Notes: generated by a model from the letters alone, not told the origin. DNA of 45,468 nt from Deltaproteobacteria bacterium (GCA_029261775.1 JAJDAR010000023.1:1-45468); one strand, 5' to 3'. Shown: positions 28,748 through 38,374, numbered from the stretch's first letter. Translations and numbers: made by a program.

Positions 28748-29233
28748 ATGAGGATGATTCGGGGATTGCGTTCGGCTCTGCTGGCGGCGGCTCTGGGCCT
28801 CGCGCTCGTGGCAGCACCCGCACTGGCCGACAACGACGTCGGCTGCGGGATCGGCACGAAGTTCATGGAGGGAAAGGAAGGGCTCGTTTCCCACGTGCTG
28901 GCGTCCTGCACGAACGCCTACACGCTGCAATCGGTGTCGCTGACCTTCAACTTGTTCGGTTGCGACGGAACGGGCCCGGTCACCGCCGACGCCCAGCTGC
29001 GGAAGTTCGCGGCCTCGCACATCGACCAGCTCGCGCGGGACGTGGCCCGCGGTGAGGGCGAGGCGCTCGCGGCCTTTGCCCACCTGCTGCAGCTGCCGGT
29101 CGAGCTGCACGGCACCTTCGGGGAGTTCACCCAGATCCACTTCACGGAGCTGTTCCCGGGCGAGAGCGTCGATTCGAACGAGATGATCGACGCGTTCTAT
29201 CGACTGCTCGGCGAACACGCCGTCCAGAGCTGA
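28748..29233 (+). CDS. DUF3015 family exported protein
   Basis: A 161-aa protein with a Sec signal peptide (about 1-27, cleaving after ALA) and the DUF3015 pattern NDVGCGIGTKFMEGKEGLVSHVLASCTNA with following CDGTG. Mature protein has Cys residues that could pair in the periplasm. The C-terminal half is predicted helical (QLARDVARGEGEALAAFAHLL). Family function is not known. GGGAGG lies 7 nt before the ATG. It is followed after 57 nt by a DUF4105 gene on the same strand; I recall these two families as frequent neighbours, which suggests a shared envelope role. Confidence 0.85.
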   Translation: MRMIRGLRSALLAAALGLALVAAPALADNDVGCGIGTKFMEGKEGLVSHVLASCTNAYTLQSVSLTFNLFGCDGTGPVTADAQLRKFAASHIDQLARDVARGEGEALAAFAHLLQLPVELHGTFGEFTQIHFTELFPGESVDSNEMIDAFYRLLGEHAVQS

Positions 29234-29290: not shown

Positions 29291-31195
29291 TTGCGCCGCA
29301 TCGCCCTGCTGACGGCTGCGCTCCTGCTGGCGCAGGGCCTGCCCGCCCGCGGAGCCGACGTCGAGGACCTGCTCGACGTCGCCCGGGAGCGGGCGCTCGC
29401 CTCGCATCCCGCCTGGCGGGCCCTGCTCCACGTCGTACCAGGTCGCCTCGGCCAGACCCCTCACAGCGAGATCCCGCAGGGCCCCTTCTTCCTGAGCGGA
29501 CGCGGCGCGGAGGACCCGGCCGCGGAGCTCGAGGCGACCCTCCGCGGTTGGCTCGCCGGCCCGCAGCGGGGGGACGACGCGATCCATTGCCGGTTCCCGG
29601 CACGCACGCGCTGGCTGGCCGATCAGCTCGGGCTCGCCGGGTCCGGATCCGACGCTGCCTGCCCGGCACTGGACACGTGGCGCGAGAAGCTGTCGCCCCG
29701 CGGCATCACGCTGATCTTCGCCGAAGCCTTCATGAACAACCCGGCATCGATGTTCGGTCACACCCTGCTGCGACTCGACGTCGCCGACCCTTCGGCGCCT
29801 CGCAACCTGCTCGCCTTTGCCATCGACTTCACCGCCAGCACGGGAGGAGACGCCGGGCCCATCTTCATGGCGAAGGGGAGCTTCGGTTTCTACCCCGGCC
29901 GCTTCGGCTTGAGCCCCTACTACGAGAAGCTCGAGGTCTACGCGGACTGGCAGAACCGCGACATCTGGGAGTACCCGCTGGATCTCGACGCGGCAGAAGT
30001 CGAACGCGTGCTGCTCCACCTGTGGGAGCTCGACGACATCGCGATCCCCTACTACTTCTTCCGCCAGAACTGCTCGTACCAGCTGATCCGCCTGCTCGCG
30101 GTGGCGAGGCCTCAGCTCGGGTTGCGTCACGGTTTTCCGGTCAGCGTGATCCCGGTGGATACGGTTCGCGACGCACTCGGGGAGATCGGACTGCTCGGCG
30201 AACCGCGCTTCCGCGCCTCGCCTGCGGCCGAGCTGCGGGTCGCGCTGGCCGAACTCCCGAAGGCGGGGAGACGCCTCGCGCTGGAGCTTGCGCGGGGCAT
30301 CGCGGAGCCGGAGGATCCCCGGGTCGCGGCTCTCGACGACGGGGAACGCGCTGCGGTGCTCGGCGCCGCGGCCGCGGCGGTCCGCTACGCGTTCGTCCAG
30401 GACGATCGCCCGGACCCGGAGCTCCGCGAACGCTCCTACCGCCTGCTCGTCGCGCGCAGCCGCGCGGGCAAGGTCCAGGCGCCAGCGGTCCCCCGGCCCG
30501 CGGTCCGGCCGGACCAGGGCCACGGCACCGCCATCGCCGAGCTCGGCGCCGGGCTCGAGGACGACGAGGCGTTCCTCGAGCTGCGCGTCCGACCCGCGTT
30601 CCACGGGCTGCTCGACCCGGCGGCGGGGTTCCCGCGCGACTCGACGATCGGCGTGCTCGACACGAGGCTGCGCTTCTATCCCGGCGCGAACCGGGTCCGG
30701 CTCCACGAGCTGGTGCTGGTCGAGCTGCAGTCGAACACGCCGCGGGACGACTTCTTCCAGCCTCTCTCCTGGGGCCTCGAAGCCGGCCTGCGAACGCGCC
30801 GCTTCCCCGACGGAGACGACCTCGACCGGGCTCTGGTCTTCCGGGCCGGCGGGAGCCTCGGCCTGACCTGGGCTCCCGGCGACGGCGCGGTCACGCTCTA
30901 CGGGCTGGCGCTCGCGCGGCTCGAGATCGGCTCGGGCTTCGATCGCGGCGTGGCGGCCGGTCCGGGTGTGGAGCTGGGGGTGGGGGTCGAGACGCCGGAC
31001 GATCGCTTCGAAGGCCGGTTGTTCGCCCGCGGGCTGCACTTCCTCGCTGGCGAACCCGCGACCCCGCTGGCGGCCGGCCTCGGCGGTCGGCTCACGCTCG
31101 GTCGACGCACGGCGCTGCTGGCCGAGCTGACCGCGCAGCACTTCGATGGCGAGAGCTGGCTCGACGCCAGGCTCGGCCTGCGCTGGAGCTTCTGA
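29291..31195 (+). CDS. DUF4105 / Lnb N-terminal-domain-like envelope protein with a beta-barrel-like C-terminus
   Basis: A 634-aa exported protein. Residues 1-21 are a signal peptide. The DUF4105 domain (about 100-300) shows AFMNNPASMFGHTLLRL with His157 and YYFFRQNCSYQLIRLL with Cys261, the probable Cys-His catalytic pair shared with the periplasmic domain of the lipoprotein transacylase Lnb and NlpC/P60-like enzymes. The remainder (about 380-634) is a series of amphipathic strands ending RLGLRWSF, with terminal Phe, as in outer-membrane barrels. This suggests a Cys enzyme displayed at the outer membrane. The start is a TTG without a clear ribosome binding site; the frame does not offer a better one that keeps the signal peptide. 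Confidence 0.8.
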   Translation: MRRIALLTAALLLAQGLPARGADVEDLLDVARERALASHPAWRALLHVVPGRLGQTPHSEIPQGPFFLSGRGAEDPAAELEATLRGWLAGPQRGDDAIHCRFPARTRWLADQLGLAGSGSDAACPALDTWREKLSPRGITLIFAEAFMNNPASMFGHTLLRLDVADPSAPRNLLAFAIDFTASTGGDAGPIFMAKGSFGFYPGRFGLSPYYEKLEVYADWQNRDIWEYPLDLDAAEVERVLLHLWELDDIAIPYYFFRQNCSYQLIRLLAVARPQLGLRHGFPVSVIPVDTVRDALGEIGLLGEPRFRASPAAELRVALAELPKAGRRLALELARGIAEPEDPRVAALDDGERAAVLGAAAAAVRYAFVQDDRPDPELRERSYRLLVARSRAGKVQAPAVPRPAVRPDQGHGTAIAELGAGLEDDEAFLELRVRPAFHGLLDPAAGFPRDSTIGVLDTRLRFYPGANRVRLHELVLVELQSNTPRDDFFQPLSWGLEAGLRTRRFPDGDDLDRALVFRAGGSLGLTWAPGDGAVTLYGLALARLEIGSGFDRGVAAGPGVELGVGVETPDDRFEGRLFARGLHFLAGEPATPLAAGLGGRLTLGRRTALLAELTAQHFDGESWLDARLGLRWSF

Positions 31196-31897: not shown

Positions 31898-34102
31898 ATG
31901 GCCCGCTTCCGCATCCTCGTGCCGCTGTTGGCCCTCGCCTGCGGCCTGGCCGTCTACGGCGCGCAGCCTACGGCGCTCGAGACCCTGCGCCACCAGGCCT
32001 TCGACCAGCTCCAGCGTCTCCATCCCCGGACGTACCGCGATGCCGGGGTCCGGGTCGTCGACCTGGACGACGCAAGCCTGGCGAAGATCGGCCAGTGGCC
32101 GTGGTCGCGCTCGACGGTGGCGCGACTCGTCGACCGGCTGCACGAGGCCGGGGTGGCGGCAATCGCCTTCGACATGGCTTTCGCGGAGCCGGACCGCACG
32201 GCGCCTTCCCGGCTGGTCGAGAGCTGGCCGCAGGCCCGGGAGCGGAGCGCGCTGCATGCCGAGCTCCTCGCGCTTCCCGACCCCGACGAGGCGCTCGCTC
32301 GCAGCTTCGCCCGCGCGCCGGTCGTGACCGGCTTCTTCCTCGGCCAGGGCGACACCGTGCGGGTGCCGATCGCCAAGCCGGACCTGCTGGTCGGCAAGGA
32401 CCGCGCCTCGAAGAGCGATCCGCTGCGACGGGTGCCTCGCTTCGAATCGGCCGTGTCGAACCTGCCCGCGCTCGAGGCGGCGGCCCGCGGCAACGGGTCG
32501 GCCAACGGGTCGGCCGACGCCGACGGCGTGCACCGCCGGATCCACCTGCTCTACCGGTTCGGCGACGAGCTGCTGCCCGGGCTCGCACTGGAAGCCCTTC
32601 GCGTCGCGATCGGAGGCGAGCGCATCCTGGCCCGCGCGGACGACGCCGACGGTGATCTCGGAATCTCCGAGGTGGCCTTGCCGCCTCGCTTCCGGATCCC
32701 CACCGACCCGTCGGGCGCGGTCTGGCTCCACTACGCCGAGGACTGGCGACGGCGCACGCTCCCGGCCTGGCGGGTGCTCGACGGAGAGGTCGGCGATCGC
32801 GAGCTGGCAGGGACCCTCGTCTTCGTCGGCACCAGCGCGGTCGGCCTTCGCGATCAGCGGCCAGCCCCTCTCGACCCCTACCTGCCGGGCGTGATGCTCC
32901 ACGCCGAGCTCGTGGAGCACGTGATCCTCGACCACCACCTGGTGCGGCCCGGTTTCATGCTGGGCGCCGAATGGCTCGTCACCGCCTGCTTTGGCCTGGC
33001 CGTGATCCTGATCGTGAGGTTCAGCAACGCGCTGATCGGTGCAGCCCTCGCGCTCACCGTCACCGGAGGAGCGGTCGGCCTGTCGCTCTGGGCCTTCACG
33101 GAGCACCTGTGGCTGATCGACCCCGTCACACCGACCCTCGGCATCTTCACCGTGTTCGGCCTGAGCTCGGTCCTCGGACAGCTCTCGGAGGAGTCGCAGA
33201 AGCGCCAGGTGCGCAGCGCCTTCGGACACTATCTCGCGCCGGCCATGGTCGAGGAGCTCTCGACGCACCCGGAGCGGCTGCGCCTCGGGGGCGAGATGCG
33301 CGAGCTGAGCTTCCTGTTCTGCGACGTGCGCGGCTTCACCACGTTGTCCGAACGCATGGAGCCCGAAGAGCTCACCCGCCTGGTGAACAGGCTCCTCACT
33401 CCCCTGACCGAAGTGATCCTGGAGACGCGCGGCACGATCGACAAGTACATGGGCGACTGCGTCATGGCGTTCTGGAACGCGCCGCTCGACGTTCCCGACC
33501 ATGCCAGCCTGGCCTGTCAGGCCGCGCTCGAGATGCTCGACGCCCTCGAAGCCCTCAACGCCCGGCTCGGGGCCGAAGCGGCCCGGGAGGGGCGTCCCTT
33601 CGAGCCCCTGCGCGTGGGCGTCGGCGTGAACACCGGGCCCGCCTGCGTCGGGAACCTCGGCAGCCGCCAGCGCTTCGACTACTCGGTCATCGGCGACGCG
33701 GTCAACCTCGCCTCCAGGCTCGAAGGCCAGTCCAAGACCTATGGCGTGGACATCGTGATCGGCGAGGCCACCCGTCTCGCCGTCCCGGACCGGGCCGCGC
33801 TCGAGCTCGATCGGCTCCGGGTCAAGGGCAAGCGCGAACCGGTGCAGATCCATGCCTTGCTGGGCGACGCCGAGGTAGGGCGAAGGCTCGACTTCGTCGA
33901 GCTGCGCGGACACCACGACGCCATGCTGAAGGCCTACCGGGCCCAGGAGTGGGACGATGCGCTCGAACGGATCGAGGAGTGCGGGGTTCGCGCCCCGCAG
34001 CTCGAGATCTTGTACGCGCTGTACCGCGAGCGGATCGAGCGCTACCGGGACGACCCGCCGGGCGCGGGCTGGGACGGCGTCTTCACCGCCACCACGAAGT
34101 AG
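31898..34102 (+). CDS. CHASE2-domain class III adenylate/guanylate cyclase
   Basis: A 734-aa membrane receptor. The N-terminal helix (about 5-22) leads into a CHASE2 extracytoplasmic sensor (about 25-340; VRVVDLDDASLAKIGQWPWSR, VAAIAFDMAFAEPDR, GTLVFVGTSAVGLRDQRPAPLDPYLPGVMLHA, seen in parts), then three helices (about 360-430), and a cytoplasmic class III cyclase domain (about 460-640): FLFCDVRGFTTLSERM with the first metal Asp, DKYMGDCVMAFWNAP with the second, VGVGVNTGPACVGNLGS and YSVIGDAVNLASRLEGQSK. A helical tail follows. It should make cyclic AMP or GMP in response to a periplasmic signal. It heads the Slam-like/FecR/FecR genes. Residues around 195-205 contain a GSAN repeat. The frame is open upstream, but the ATG at 31898 begins the family-like sequence. 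Confidence 0.93.
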   Translation: MARFRILVPLLALACGLAVYGAQPTALETLRHQAFDQLQRLHPRTYRDAGVRVVDLDDASLAKIGQWPWSRSTVARLVDRLHEAGVAAIAFDMAFAEPDRTAPSRLVESWPQARERSALHAELLALPDPDEALARSFARAPVVTGFFLGQGDTVRVPIAKPDLLVGKDRASKSDPLRRVPRFESAVSNLPALEAAARGNGSANGSADADGVHRRIHLLYRFGDELLPGLALEALRVAIGGERILARADDADGDLGISEVALPPRFRIPTDPSGAVWLHYAEDWRRRTLPAWRVLDGEVGDRELAGTLVFVGTSAVGLRDQRPAPLDPYLPGVMLHAELVEHVILDHHLVRPGFMLGAEWLVTACFGLAVILIVRFSNALIGAALALTVTGGAVGLSLWAFTEHLWLIDPVTPTLGIFTVFGLSSVLGQLSEESQKRQVRSAFGHYLAPAMVEELSTHPERLRLGGEMRELSFLFCDVRGFTTLSERMEPEELTRLVNRLLTPLTEVILETRGTIDKYMGDCVMAFWNAPLDVPDHASLACQAALEMLDALEALNARLGAEAAREGRPFEPLRVGVGVNTGPACVGNLGSRQRFDYSVIGDAVNLASRLEGQSKTYGVDIVIGEATRLAVPDRAALELDRLRVKGKREPVQIHALLGDAEVGRRLDFVELRGHHDAMLKAYRAQEWDDALERIEECGVRAPQLEILYALYRERIERYRDDPPGAGWDGVFTATTK
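32491..32514 (+). repeat. 12-bp in-frame tandem repeat in the cyclase sensor domain
   Basis: Two exact copies of CAACGGGTCGGC, giving GNGSANGSA in a loop of the CHASE2 domain. Confidence 0.8.
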
Positions 34103-34164
34103 CGGCGACCTCCCCGCGACCGGCTCGCTGATGTGCAGGCTCGGGTGGAAACGCCCTCTCCGGA

Positions 34165-34192
34165 ACCGGAAAGCGACTGCCGATCTTCCGGT
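34165..34192. other. Inverted repeat ACCGGAA-N14-TTCCGGT before the Slam-like gene
   Basis: A perfect 7-bp inverted repeat with 14 bp between the arms, in the 114-bp gap between the cyclase and the Slam-like gene. It may be an operator or a transcript hairpin; no T run follows. Confidence 0.4.
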
Positions 34193-34216
34193 GTGATCTC
34201 ACGCTCGGAGACCCGC

Positions 34217-35629
34217 ATGCGACCGGTCCCTTTTGCGCTCCTCCTGTCCGCCGCCCTGACGGCCGGCGCCACCTTGCCCGCGTTGGCGCAGGTGCGCTCG
34301 TCCGACCAGGAGCGCGAGTCGATCGAGCGAAGCTCGGAAACGGGCCGGGAGGCGCTCGAGGCCGCCCGCGAGGCCGAGCGACTGACCGCTTCGGGCGCGG
34401 GCGTGACCTACGCGGACGTCCTCGCGAACCCCGACGACGCCGCCCTGAACTATCGCTGGGCCAATGCCCAGGTCGCCCGCGGCGATCTGAAGGGCGCGGC
34501 CGCGACCCTCGAACGGATCCTCCTGCTCGCGCCCGAGCTCGCGCAGGTCCGGCTCTTTCGCGCGATCGTGCTCTACCGGCTCGACGATCTCGCCGGGGCC
34601 GAAACCGAGCTCGAAACCCTTCGGGAGACGCAGCTCACTCCGGAGCTGGCCGCGACCGCCGCCGACTACGCCCGCCGCATCGACCGCCGCCAGCAGCAGC
34701 TCCGCGGCTCCTTCAGCCTGTCGGGCGGCGCACAGTTCGACGACAACCGCACCTCATCGCCGCACTCGGACACGCTCTTGATCCGGGACTTCCGCTTCCA
34801 GCTCGGCGACGGCGCCACCGAAGACGACGACTACGCGTACCTCGCGATCGGCGACCTCTCCTTCGAGCGCGACGTCGGCGCACAGGAGCAGCACACCCTG
34901 TTCGGCCGGCTGACCTACTACAACGCCGAGCAGGAGAAGCTCGACCGCTTCGACGTGCGCTCCGCAGGCATGGACGTCGGTCTGCTCTACCGGACCCGTC
35001 CCATCGACTGGACCTTCAAGCTGTCGAGCAGTCTGGTGGACCTCTCCTCCGAGAAGTTCGTGCGTACCCTCGGCGGCGAGATCCGCGCCGAGCGGCGACT
35101 CTCGCCGACCACCCTCGGTCGCGCCCTCGCGCGGCTCGAGTACTTCGACTACGACGGCATCCCGGATTCGCCGCGCGCGTACCAGCGCACCGGCTTCGAG
35201 TCGACGCTGGGCAGCGAGCTCGAGTTCACGCTCTCACCGAGCCACCGGACCCTGCTGGCGCTCGGCGTGCGCAACCGCTCCGCGGACAAGCGCTTCTACA
35301 GCCACTACGGACCGACCGGAGGCATGCAGCACACCTGGCTGCCGGGCGGCGGGCAGTTCGTCGTGGCCGGCGCCACGCTCGACTGGAATCGCTACAAGGA
35401 CGCCCAGACCTTCCTCAGCACCAAGATCCGGCGCGAGCTGGAGGTGCGCTCGCGACTCCTCTACGGAGCGCCGCTGTCCTTCCTCTCGGCGGGCTTGCTC
35501 GGCGGCACGGTGGGAGACGTCGTGCTCTCGCTCACCGGCGAGTACCTGTGGGTCTCGTCGAACCTCCCGAACTTCACGTACGACAACCTCAAGCTGGGCT
35601 TCCTCGTGACGAAGCGCTGGGACTTCTGA
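34217..35629 (+). CDS. Slam-like (DUF560) outer-membrane protein: TPR domain plus beta barrel
   Basis: A 470-aa outer-membrane protein. Signal peptide 1-24 (ending LPALA), a helical linker, then TPR-like helices (about 60-150; NYRWANAQVARGDLKGAAATLERILLLAPELAQVRLFRAIVLYRL, in parts) ending in ADYARRIDRRQQQLRG, and a C-terminal barrel of amphipathic strands (about 165-470, starting SLSGGAQFDDNRTS and ending VTKRWDF with terminal Phe). Order, length and the YxxxIDRR / D-x-N transition match surface lipoprotein assembly modifiers, which move specific partner proteins to the cell surface. ATG with GGAG upstream. The next gene starts 1 nt after the stop, so the FecR proteins are its likely cargo. 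Confidence 0.75.
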   Translation: MRPVPFALLLSAALTAGATLPALAQVRSSDQERESIERSSETGREALEAAREAERLTASGAGVTYADVLANPDDAALNYRWANAQVARGDLKGAAATLERILLLAPELAQVRLFRAIVLYRLDDLAGAETELETLRETQLTPELAATAADYARRIDRRQQQLRGSFSLSGGAQFDDNRTSSPHSDTLLIRDFRFQLGDGATEDDDYAYLAIGDLSFERDVGAQEQHTLFGRLTYYNAEQEKLDRFDVRSAGMDVGLLYRTRPIDWTFKLSSSLVDLSSEKFVRTLGGEIRAERRLSPTTLGRALARLEYFDYDGIPDSPRAYQRTGFESTLGSELEFTLSPSHRTLLALGVRNRSADKRFYSHYGPTGGMQHTWLPGGGQFVVAGATLDWNRYKDAQTFLSTKIRRELEVRSRLLYGAPLSFLSAGLLGGTVGDVVLSLTGEYLWVSSNLPNFTYDNLKLGFLVTKRWDF

Positions 35630-35630
35630 G

Positions 35631-37043
35631 GTGCGACTCCGCCTGCTGGCGCTGGTGGGCTGCTGGCTGGCCCTGCCGGGCTCTGCGGGGGCCGCCGTCC
35701 AGGCGGGCGTCGCCGCAGCGGTCCGCGGCGCCGTGACCCTCGACCGCGGCGCGGTCGTCGGCCAGCAGGTGTCGAGCGGCGATCCGATCCGCCTGGGAGA
35801 CGTCCTCCAGACGGGCGCCGACGGCGGCATGCAGGTGCTGCTGCTCGACGAGACCGTCTTCACGCTCGGCGCGAGCAGTCGCCTGGTGATCGACGAGTTC
35901 GTCTATGCCCCCGACGGGCGGGAGGGTCGGCTCGGCGCACGGCTGGTGAAGGGCGCCTTCCGCTTCGTCACGGGACGGGTCGCGGACGATCACCCCGAGA
36001 ACGTCGAGCTGAAGCTTCCCAACGGAACGATCGGCATCCGCGGCACGGTCGCGGAGGCCGTGGTCGAGGGGGACCACAGCCGCGTCCTGCTCGTCGGCCC
36101 CGGCCCCACCAACGACGCCTCGGAGCGGGTCGGCGCCCTGCTCGTCCGTGCCGGGGGAATCACGCGCGAGCTGCTCACCCCGGGCTTCGAGGTCGTGATC
36201 GGCGCCGATCACATCCCCTCGCTGCCCGCGCGGATCGAGTCGCCGCTTCCCTTTTCCTCCCCGTCGCCTGAGGCGGAGCGACCCGCCCAGCCTCCGACAG
36301 CGCCCACCCGGCCGGCCCAGGCCGTGCTGCCGGCGGCCTCCCCAGACACCGACCCGGCGGGATCGACGCGCGCTGCGGGAATCCCGCGCGCCGTGGCGCG
36401 ACTCGCGGCCGTGCGGCGCGCCGTCGAGGCGGAGACCTCCACCACCGAATCCGAGCAGTCGGGATCGGCCCCACGCAAGCTGGGCACGGCGAATCTGGTC
36501 CCGGGCCAGAAGGGCTTCGACCTGGGCCTGCTGCTGGAGAAGGGACAGATCGATCCCTCCATCCTGCTGCCCCCCGCCGGTCTGCCCGACGCCAACACGC
36601 CGAGGTCCCACCTGGCGGCCGTCGCGAGCTTCTTCCCGGGCCGCTTCGAGTGGCGTTTCGACGACAAGCCTTTCAACGGCGGAAACGTCGCGGGGCGCTT
36701 CGACCTGAACGTGGTGATCGACTTCGGCAACGAGGTCGTGGCGATGGGCTTCGGGGATCTGGTCTCGGCCGCCTTCCTGACCAACGGCTCCGGAAAGCCG
36801 GTGTTCGACGTGCGTTCCTTTGCGGGCGGAGGCTCGAACGACGCGGTCTTCTTCATGGGCGGCACCTACGACGAGCCCGGGATCGCCTGCGGAACGGGCT
36901 GCGACGTCGACCTCGTGACCCGGTTCCTGAATCGCAACGGCAACGTCGCGAGCCACGCCGACTTCGTCCTCCAGGTCCAGGCGCCGGGCAAGACCGGCGT
37001 CTTCCAAAGCAGTGAAACCCCCGTCCTCCAGGTGATTCCGTGA
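35631..37043 (+). CDS. FecR-domain secreted protein, first of a tandem pair
   Basis: A 470-aa exported protein: signal peptide (1-20), a FecR domain (about 22-170; VAAAVRGAVTLDRGAVVG, DVLQTGADGGMQVLLLDETVFTLG, SRLVIDEFVY, NGTIGIRGTVAEAVV), a Pro/Ala-rich linker (about 195-270), and a C-terminal domain (about 320-470) with GRFDLNVVIDFGN and CGTGCDVDLVTRFLNRN. There is no membrane helix or anti-sigma region and no sigma factor gene nearby, so it is not an ordinary FecR signalling protein; it should be outside the inner membrane. The start GTG lies 1 nt after the Slam-like stop. Its paralog follows at 37040. Confidence 0.88.
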   Translation: MRLRLLALVGCWLALPGSAGAAVQAGVAAAVRGAVTLDRGAVVGQQVSSGDPIRLGDVLQTGADGGMQVLLLDETVFTLGASSRLVIDEFVYAPDGREGRLGARLVKGAFRFVTGRVADDHPENVELKLPNGTIGIRGTVAEAVVEGDHSRVLLVGPGPTNDASERVGALLVRAGGITRELLTPGFEVVIGADHIPSLPARIESPLPFSSPSPEAERPAQPPTAPTRPAQAVLPAASPDTDPAGSTRAAGIPRAVARLAAVRRAVEAETSTTESEQSGSAPRKLGTANLVPGQKGFDLGLLLEKGQIDPSILLPPAGLPDANTPRSHLAAVASFFPGRFEWRFDDKPFNGGNVAGRFDLNVVIDFGNEVVAMGFGDLVSAAFLTNGSGKPVFDVRSFAGGGSNDAVFFMGGTYDEPGIACGTGCDVDLVTRFLNRNGNVASHADFVLQVQAPGKTGVFQSSETPVLQVIP

Positions 37044-38374
37044 CGCCTCGACTCCTCCGCCTCGTCCTCCTCCTCGCCGTGCTCGGACCGGGCGCCGGCT
37101 ACGCAGGCGTTCCCGCCGGCGTGGCCGCCGCCGTCCGCGGGTCGGTCTCCCTGGACCGGGCTCCCGAGATCGGGCGCCGCGTGGCGAGCGGCGATTCGAT
37201 CCACCTCGGGGACATCCTGCAGACGGGCCCGAAGGGGGGCATGCAGCTCCTGCTGCTCGACGAGACGGTCTTCACCCTGGGACCGGACAGCCGCCTGGTG
37301 ATCGACGAGTTCGTCTACGACCCGGGCCAGCACGGTGGCAAGATGCAGGTCCGACTGGCGAAGGGCGTGTTCCGCTTCGTCACCGGCAAGATCGCCCGGG
37401 ACGAGCCCGAGAACGTGGACCTCGAGCTGCCGGTCGGCAGCATCGGCATTCGCGGCACGATCGGCGGTGCACGGGTCGGAGCGCAGGAGAGCGTCGTCGC
37501 GCTGCTCGGACCCGGACCGCTGAACGACGCGGACGAGCGCATCGGCGGGCTCGTGGTGCGGACGCCGGGCGGGGAGCGCGAGATCGTGACCCCCGGATGG
37601 GCGGTCACGATCTCGGGCGCGGGGCCTCCCTCGGTCCCCTTCCACGCGGGACCGGGCGGCTTCCTTCCACCCGCACCGCCGCAAGCACCCGGCCCTCCGC
37701 CGGGCTCCCGCCCTGCGCCTGCGGGATCGGATGGATCGGGCCTCGATCCCGAAGAGTCGGCAGGAGCGGTTCGCGCCGGCGGCCTGGTGGCCGGCCGCAC
37801 GCCCCGCCAGGTGGCCCGCCAGGGGGCCGCGCTCGAGGGACTCGACCCGTCGGGGCTCCGCACGCCGGACGAGCAGAACCTCCAGACCTTCGTGCCCGAG
37901 TTTGCGGGCCAGGGCCTGAACTTCCCGGACGGGATCACCCGCGTCGTCGAGCTGGTCCAGTACTCGAACCAGTTCCAGGGCTCGCTGCACTGGGAGATCA
38001 AGGGCGCCCTGCTGAACACGCCCCCGACCGGCATCTTCGATGCCGAGGTCATCGTCGACTTCGCCAAGCGCGACGTCGGCTTCAAGTTCGAGAAATTCAA
38101 CTCCCTGACCTTCGTGACCAGCGGAATGGGCGCGCCCCTGGCCGTGGCCAGGCCCTTTGCCTCCGGATCGAACGGCAACGCGGACTTCGTCCTCACGGGC
38201 CAATACATCGAGCCCTCGGGATGCGTCCCCTGCAACGTCACGTTGAACTCGCGCTTCTCCAACCGGAACAACCAGCCGGCGCGCGAGGGAGACTTCTTCA
38301 TCGTGATCTCGAATGGCGGAACGGTGGCGACCTCCGGTCCCTTCAAGGGGCCGCCGACTCTCATCATGCCATGA
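37040..38374 (+). CDS. FecR-domain secreted protein, second of a tandem pair
   Basis: A 444-aa paralog of the preceding gene, clearly from a tandem duplication: long stretches of the FecR domain are near-identical at DNA level (the SRLVIDEFVY region). Signal peptide 1-22, FecR domain about 24-170 (GDILQTGPKGGMQLLLLDETVFTLG, GSIGIRGTIGGA), Pro-rich linker (about 200-240), and a C-terminal domain (about 300-444) with GIFDAEVIVDFAK and CVPCNVTLNSRFSNRN. The C-terminal domain is more diverged than the FecR domain, as for a part in contact with different ligands. GTG start overlapping the previous stop (GTGA). Confidence 0.88.
   Translation: MTPRLLRLVLLLAVLGPGAGYAGVPAGVAAAVRGSVSLDRAPEIGRRVASGDSIHLGDILQTGPKGGMQLLLLDETVFTLGPDSRLVIDEFVYDPGQHGGKMQVRLAKGVFRFVTGKIARDEPENVDLELPVGSIGIRGTIGGARVGAQESVVALLGPGPLNDADERIGGLVVRTPGGEREIVTPGWAVTISGAGPPSVPFHAGPGGFLPPAPPQAPGPPPGSRPAPAGSDGSGLDPEESAGAVRAGGLVAGRTPRQVARQGAALEGLDPSGLRTPDEQNLQTFVPEFAGQGLNFPDGITRVVELVQYSNQFQGSLHWEIKGALLNTPPTGIFDAEVIVDFAKRDVGFKFEKFNSLTFVTSGMGAPLAVARPFASGSNGNADFVLTGQYIEPSGCVPCNVTLNSRFSNRNNQPAREGDFFIVISNGGTVATSGPFKGPPTLIMP

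Follow-up and report, generated by a model that had tools for sequence, protein, structure and literature searches.

Slam proteins (DUF560, PF04575), the translocators of the type 11 secretion system (T11SS), combine TPR helices with a 14-stranded outer-membrane barrel and neighbour a partner gene whose product has an N-terminal domain, a linker and a C-terminal beta barrel; T11SS cargo includes TbpB, fHbp, NHBA and hemophilin. The subject of this report is a four-gene locus in a DNA stretch of 45,468 nucleotides (nt), hereafter the window, from a Deltaproteobacteria bacterium (GCA_029261775.1, JAJDAR010000023.1:1-45468), in which the gene of a TPR-barrel protein stands between those of a CHASE2-domain nucleotide cyclase and two FecR-domain proteins, and whose composition suggests a device that informs the cell interior about the condition of the cell surface. 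The locus shares with the T11SS the TPR-barrel architecture and the neighbouring three-part partner, and differs from it in that the barrel sequence lies below the Pfam cut-offs, the cargo-like partner begins with a FecR domain, and a cyclase is linked to the pair. The parts are known and their combination appears to be undescribed; neither of two surveys of the T11SS (PMC8406197, PMC12282271) mentions FecR, a cyclase or CHASE2 in its main text, and a literature search, with supplementary files and most subscription journals outside its scope, found no paper joining Slam or the T11SS with a CHASE2 cyclase.

On the signalling side, NsrA and CyaK of Sinorhizobium meliloti are each needed for the cyclic AMP (cAMP) response to the signal (PMC7529298). 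As read here from the DNA, NsrA carries a FecR domain (amino acids (aa) 66-160, 2e-15), TPRs and a barrel region in one chain of 1202 aa, and the start of CyaK overlaps the stop of NsrA. The window likewise unites a FecR domain, TPRs, an outer-membrane barrel and a CHASE2 class III cyclase at one locus, but on separate genes, with a Slam-like barrel of about 300 aa and with FecR proteins that add a cargo-like C-terminal domain. Since the FecR domain of NsrA precedes the TPRs in the same outer-membrane chain, it is probably periplasmic and near CHASE2, unless exported by its own barrel, and the occurrence of FecR, TPR and barrel as a fusion in one species and as linked but separate genes elsewhere argues that the parts probably work together. 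In Campylobacterota, genes for a CHASE2 cyclase, a phosphodiesterase, an outer-membrane FecR protein and a TPR protein lie in one cluster, for which a single pathway has been proposed; it differs from the window in carrying the phosphodiesterase, and the main text draws no relation to Slam or its cargo (PMC9239204). The Burkholderia BiofilmReg operon, needed for biofilm, also has a FecR protein adjoining a CHASE2 receptor; unlike in the window, the receptor is a histidine kinase with a response regulator, the FecR protein contains LysM, and there is no barrel (PMC5192318). Classical FecI/FecR/FecA cell-surface signalling shares the periplasmic FecR fold, whereas the window has no sigma factor on its contig, no anti-sigma domain, no inner-membrane helix and no adjacent TonB receptor.

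The four genes occupy positions 31898-38374 in the order cyclase, TPR-barrel, FecR1, FecR2, with the following features:

31898..34102, + strand: CHASE2-domain class III nucleotide cyclase, 734 aa; CHASE2 aa 17-368, cyclase aa 468-650 (Pfam; catalytic residues as in CyaK)
34217..35629, + strand: Slam/T11SS-like outer-membrane protein, 470 aa; alternative GTG start at 34133 (Pfam TPR; AlphaFold2 (AF2); SlipAM-protein profile match)
34409..34693, + strand: predicted periplasmic TPR helices of the barrel protein, aa 65-159 (AF2 secondary structure; TPR_19)
34703..35623, + strand: predicted 14-stranded beta barrel of the same protein, aa 163-469 (AF2 strand count)
35631..37043, + strand: FecR1, 470 aa, with signal-type N-terminus, FecR domain, linker and a C-terminal domain homologous to that of FecR2 (Pfam FecR 3.4e-8; alignment)
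37040..38374, + strand: FecR2, 444 aa, the copy kept in sister genomes (Pfam FecR 1.2e-7; orthologues in genomes G001, G003 and G004)
37112..37615, + strand: FecR domain of FecR2, aa 25-192 (AF2; Foldseek 4m0h, 6ovk, 5ix9)
37637..37924, + strand: predicted disordered linker of FecR2, about aa 200-295 (low AF2 confidence score, pLDDT)
37937..38371, + strand: predicted beta-barrel-like, T11SS-cargo-like C-terminal domain of FecR2, about aa 300-444 (AF2 pLDDT mostly >90; Foldseek fHbp, NHBA, TbpB C-lobe)

As the first-pass annotation had it, all four genes share one strand and the last three are closely packed, with a 1-nt gap between barrel and FecR1 and a 4-nt overlap between FecR1 and FecR2; the cyclase stop lies 114 nt from the barrel ATG (34217), or 30 nt if the GTG (34133) is the start. 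A scan for promoters and terminators gave no signal beyond chance level. Upstream on the + strand lie a DUF3015 protein (28748-29233) and a DUF7843-Lnb_N-DUF7840 protein (29291-31195; both by Pfam), a pair without a match near the barrel in the relatives examined for the sister-genome comparison.

Conservation of the four-gene neighbourhood, which had been set beforehand as a check, turned out to be strong. The sister genomes of the genus keep the order cyclase-barrel-FecR with a single FecR, nearest to FecR2, and three further genomes of the order show a barrel-FecR(-FecR)-cyclase arrangement. When the barrel profile was scanned over genome contigs, 41 loci were obtained, from genomes labelled Deltaproteobacteria, Myxococcales, Alphaproteobacteria, Omnitrophica/Omnitrophota and Elusimicrobia; FecR follows immediately 3' of the barrel in 31 of the 32 with sufficient sequence, and 13 of the 14 that are complete on both flanks include a CHASE2 cyclase. 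Because the orientation of the cyclase relative to the other two genes varies (co-directional, divergent or convergent), barrel and FecR are best regarded as the fixed pair. A separate sample, drawn to lessen seed bias, comprised 80 CHASE2 loci, divided evenly between Alphaproteobacteria and the window's phylum (40 each), and here FecR accompanies all 22 loci with this barrel family versus 20 of 58 without it (Fisher p 2e-8), standing directly after the barrel on the same strand in 21 of the 22; the barrel and FecR models that classified these loci were made from the barrel-seeded ones, so that the barrel counts favour this family's relatives. The linkage of barrel, FecR and CHASE2 is not chance but lies far above it, and it is found in genomes labelled Deltaproteobacteria/Myxococcota as well as in Alphaproteobacteria, Omnitrophota and Elusimicrobiota. 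The sole locus with enough downstream sequence and no FecR after the barrel is L083, from an Azospirillum-labelled metagenome-assembled genome.

The barrel protein had been taken for one of Slam (DUF560) type, an assignment that its relatives and its predicted structure uphold, although its own sequence stays below threshold. The AF2 model (pLDDT 85.9) has N-terminal TPR helices and 14 C-terminal strands, the number found in T11SS barrels (PMC8406197), so that the prospect raised beforehand, of a barrel from another family without the Slam TPR-barrel structure, did not materialize. Matches to SlipAM occur in 12 of 36 barrel relatives and to TPR_Slam in 13 of 36, and loci of the same kind pass the curated SlipAM cut-off (L052, 4e-7; L188, 6.7e-9; L190, 5.3e-7; L163, 1.6e-8; L130, 8e-14). 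Profile comparison by HHalign of the barrel family with SlipAM proteins of the window's order gave 99.8% over 382 columns (reversed control, 0.2%), with the homology spanning both TPR region and barrel, and the hidden Markov model (HMM) of the barrel family also picks out barrels adjoining ordinary TbpB_B_D cargo. As judged from relatives, profile comparison and model, the window barrel is a distant branch of the Slam/T11SS family. PDB sequence searches with the barrel protein returned no useful match, and no Slam structure was among the Foldseek PDB matches listed for its model. The window's genome (G000) encodes a second, separate SlipAM-type protein above the Pfam cut-off on contig C529 (8772-9119; locus L039).

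FecR1 and FecR2, which are 42% identical, each have one N-terminal signal-type segment and no inner-membrane helix in a hydropathy scan, consistent with their earlier description as secreted proteins without a membrane helix; like T11SS cargo, they thus combine a signal sequence with a gene position beside the barrel gene. No FecR domain other than theirs was found in the 5.3-Mb genome, and the two proteins are accompanied by no adjacent sigma factor of the extracytoplasmic-function type and no cytoplasmic anti-sigma domain. That no sigma factor goes with them was borne out, as none of the genome's 29 Sigma70_r2 matches lies on the window's contig (C23), and the parallel claim for a TonB receptor holds for the adjacent genes, to which the Pfam check was limited. 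In the AF2 model of FecR2, a FecR domain (aa 25-192) is followed by a disordered linker and a confidently predicted C-terminal beta domain, for which Foldseek returned fHbp, NHBA and the TbpB C-lobe. All three are known or counted as Slam cargo (TbpB and fHbp in PMC8406197), or are close to it.

The likeness to cargo is carried further by the alphaproteobacterial loci. On plasmids of Paracoccus aminophilus and Shinella, the FecR proteins of barrel-FecR-CHASE2 loci give weak TbpB_B_D and FHBP_C matches and are the only TbpB_B_D matches there. A cargo HMM made from 20 other TbpB_B_D domains matches six alphaproteobacterial FecR C-termini from such loci at 9e-16 to 2e-8, and a joint profile of these six and that of L163 aligns with canonical cargo at 98.9% in HHalign. 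FecR tail length also tracks the presence of the barrel in Alphaproteobacteria (p 4e-4). The idea that the FecR proteins may be cargo of the Slam-like protein is strengthened: a C-terminal, eight-stranded barrel of the TbpB/fHbp kind is recognizable in Alphaproteobacteria from sequence; in the window AF2 and Foldseek favour one, while the sequences remain below the cargo thresholds.

The cyclase is predicted to be intact. It matches CHASE2 (2e-54) and Guanylate_cyc (6.5e-22) in Pfam, and the class III catalytic set (two metal aspartates, a lysine and an Asn/Arg pair) is complete, at the same positions as in CyaK, which makes it a CHASE2 class III cyclase. By analogy with CyaK its product is probably cAMP, and the genome's ten matches to cyclic-nucleotide-binding domains could be readers of the nucleotide.

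In the model that we infer from these parts, the locus is a trans-envelope sensor that relies on a type 11 (Slam-like) translocator and reports to the cyclase, a reading to which we assign an even chance. Besides the gene linkage, the Slam relation of the barrel family and the cargo-like C-termini set out above, it is supported by NsrA and CyaK, which are both needed for cAMP, by the occurrence of the parts both fused and split, by the domain order of NsrA, which probably places FecR in the periplasm, and by the resemblance of the FecR N-terminus to an adhesin retention module. The TPR-barrel protein would set the FecR C-terminal mini-barrel in the outer membrane or pass it across, in the way that Slam handles TbpB and fHbp, while the N-terminal FecR domain, held on a flexible linker of about 100 residues, would remain in the periplasm and touch the cyclase at its CHASE2 domain. 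What happens to the exported head, whether it binds a ligand, makes surface contact or fails to be exported, might then be relayed via FecR to CHASE2, altering a cyclic-nucleotide output, probably cAMP, that CRP-type proteins would read. A narrower version, which we hold only tentatively and somewhat below even likelihood, makes this a cargo tether, in which the cargo sits in the type 11 translocon and the periplasmic FecR/retention-type domain serves as an occupancy or tension switch for the CHASE2 cyclase. If true, a cyclic-nucleotide signal would tell the bacterium how its own surface cargo is faring, which would be trans-envelope signalling of a new kind, with T11SS cargo sending a signal inward; Slam/T11SS export would be tied to CHASE2 cyclase signalling, CHASE2 receptors, whose periplasmic input is largely unknown, would gain a concrete candidate partner in FecR, and FecR proteins without a sigma factor would acquire a possible role.

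It has to be noted that several results weigh against this sensor. The window barrel has no SlipAM match at E<=1, short of the curated cut-off, and its TPR_Slam match (E about 0.09) is below threshold. Foldseek matches the FecR2 C-terminal domain to cargo with no more than modest E-values (0.003 and above), and the alignments with fHbp cover both domains, so that the likeness in fold is suggestive; the window's FecR C-termini fall short of the cargo Pfam thresholds, and the window-type domain reaches cargo profiles at 17-40%, the 40% being against the alphaproteobacterial intermediates, for which reason the cargo claim for the window rests on predicted structure and gene position. In the window's phylum FecR tail length shows no association with the barrel (p 0.90), and tail length has accordingly been set aside as general support. 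S. meliloti can perceive the signal without the FecR protein SMc02177, whose gene adjoins cyaD1 (PMC5498481). A search for TbpB_B_D in 80 genomes of the window's order gave no match at E 1e-3 but carries no weight either way, as none of the control genomes gave a match.

The missed Slam-type thresholds would fit a split receptor of NsrA type that exports nothing, in which the barrel is the surface receptor and the FecR proteins, wholly periplasmic, act as adaptors between barrel/TPR and CHASE2, with the mini-barrel serving only for docking. NsrA itself, with FecR, TPR and barrel in one chain, is the receptor partner of CyaK, and FecR also occurs in some CHASE2 loci that lack a barrel of this kind. 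This alternative is nevertheless unlikely, if the least so of those considered, as a plain adaptor would have no need of cargo-type C-termini, which in Alphaproteobacteria match T11SS cargo profiles, and the barrel belongs to a protein-exporting family.

Full surface display, in which the whole FecR protein is exported to adhere or to bind a ligand outside the cell and the cyclase does no more than regulate or monitor the operon, would agree with the cargo-type C-terminus and with weak NCBIfam names among 29 FecR relatives, which include the Leptospira surface adhesin Lsa33 (25/29) and LipL45 (9/29). It is distinctly improbable, since the NsrA domain order makes the FecR domain probably periplasmic and the fold is that of the periplasmic domains of cell-surface signalling (FecR/PupR in Foldseek) and of a periplasmic retention module: part of the FecR2 domain fits 5ix9, an anchoring domain of the cell surface, at 1.4 A over 63 columns. 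The earlier idea that the FecR domain works at the surface is weakened by the same two points, and the periplasm is the likelier location. The NCBIfam retention_LapA model scores 16 bits on FecR2 (cut-off 50), and weak matches to it occur in 19 of the 29 relatives (best 1e-5).

Very improbable is a polysaccharide-exporter-like pore of the BcsC, PgaA or PelB kind, with FecR and cyclase regulating matrix export. Foldseek of the barrel model returned general outer-membrane barrels and TPR-barrel exporters, with BcsC and PelB among the matches listed, and the Burkholderia biofilm operon pairs FecR-LysM with a CHASE2 histidine kinase (PMC5192318); the predicted barrel, however, has 14 strands versus the 16 of PgaA (PMC8406197), no polysaccharide synthase is among the annotated neighbours, and the partner proteins bear protein-cargo domains. 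Classical FecI/FecR sigma-anti-sigma signalling, which the FecR/PupR-like fold might recall, is rejected as scarcely credible, as three defining features fail (anti-sigma domain with inner-membrane helix, sigma factor on the contig, adjacent TonB receptor).

The start of the FecR domain in the FecR proteins of alignment A4 (about aa 25-90) shows a relationship, by sequence as well as by fold, to the module through which LapA and MpAFP are retained or anchored (the LapA/MpAFP module), a link between the anti-sigma domains of cell-surface signalling and adhesin retention.

The survey adds Omnitrophota, Elusimicrobiota and the window's phylum to the groups with candidate T11SS loci, and Tistlia consotensis and Paracoccus aminophilus are named, non-pathogenic species usable as experimental models. 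Plasmid records gave no close barrel relatives at E 1e-5, and the only Bacteroidota-named match (L073, CP051228.1), labelled Mesoflavibacter, may carry a wrong label. In T. consotensis (L078, 9767-17704) the order is barrel-FecR-barrel-FecR-cyclase, the pair being duplicated as one unit. On two Rhizobiaceae plasmids the CHASE2-FecR locus adjoins NHLP bacteriocin export genes (Shinella, L095, 8116-14103; Ensifer, L094, 1364-4773), and the Ensifer locus has a short FecR and a TPR protein from which the barrel has been lost. Elusimicrobia-type loci (L062, L063, L068, L071, L077 and L081) have, on the opposite strand and convergent to FecR, another gene that matches the barrel family weakly in its TPR part and possibly encodes a further component.

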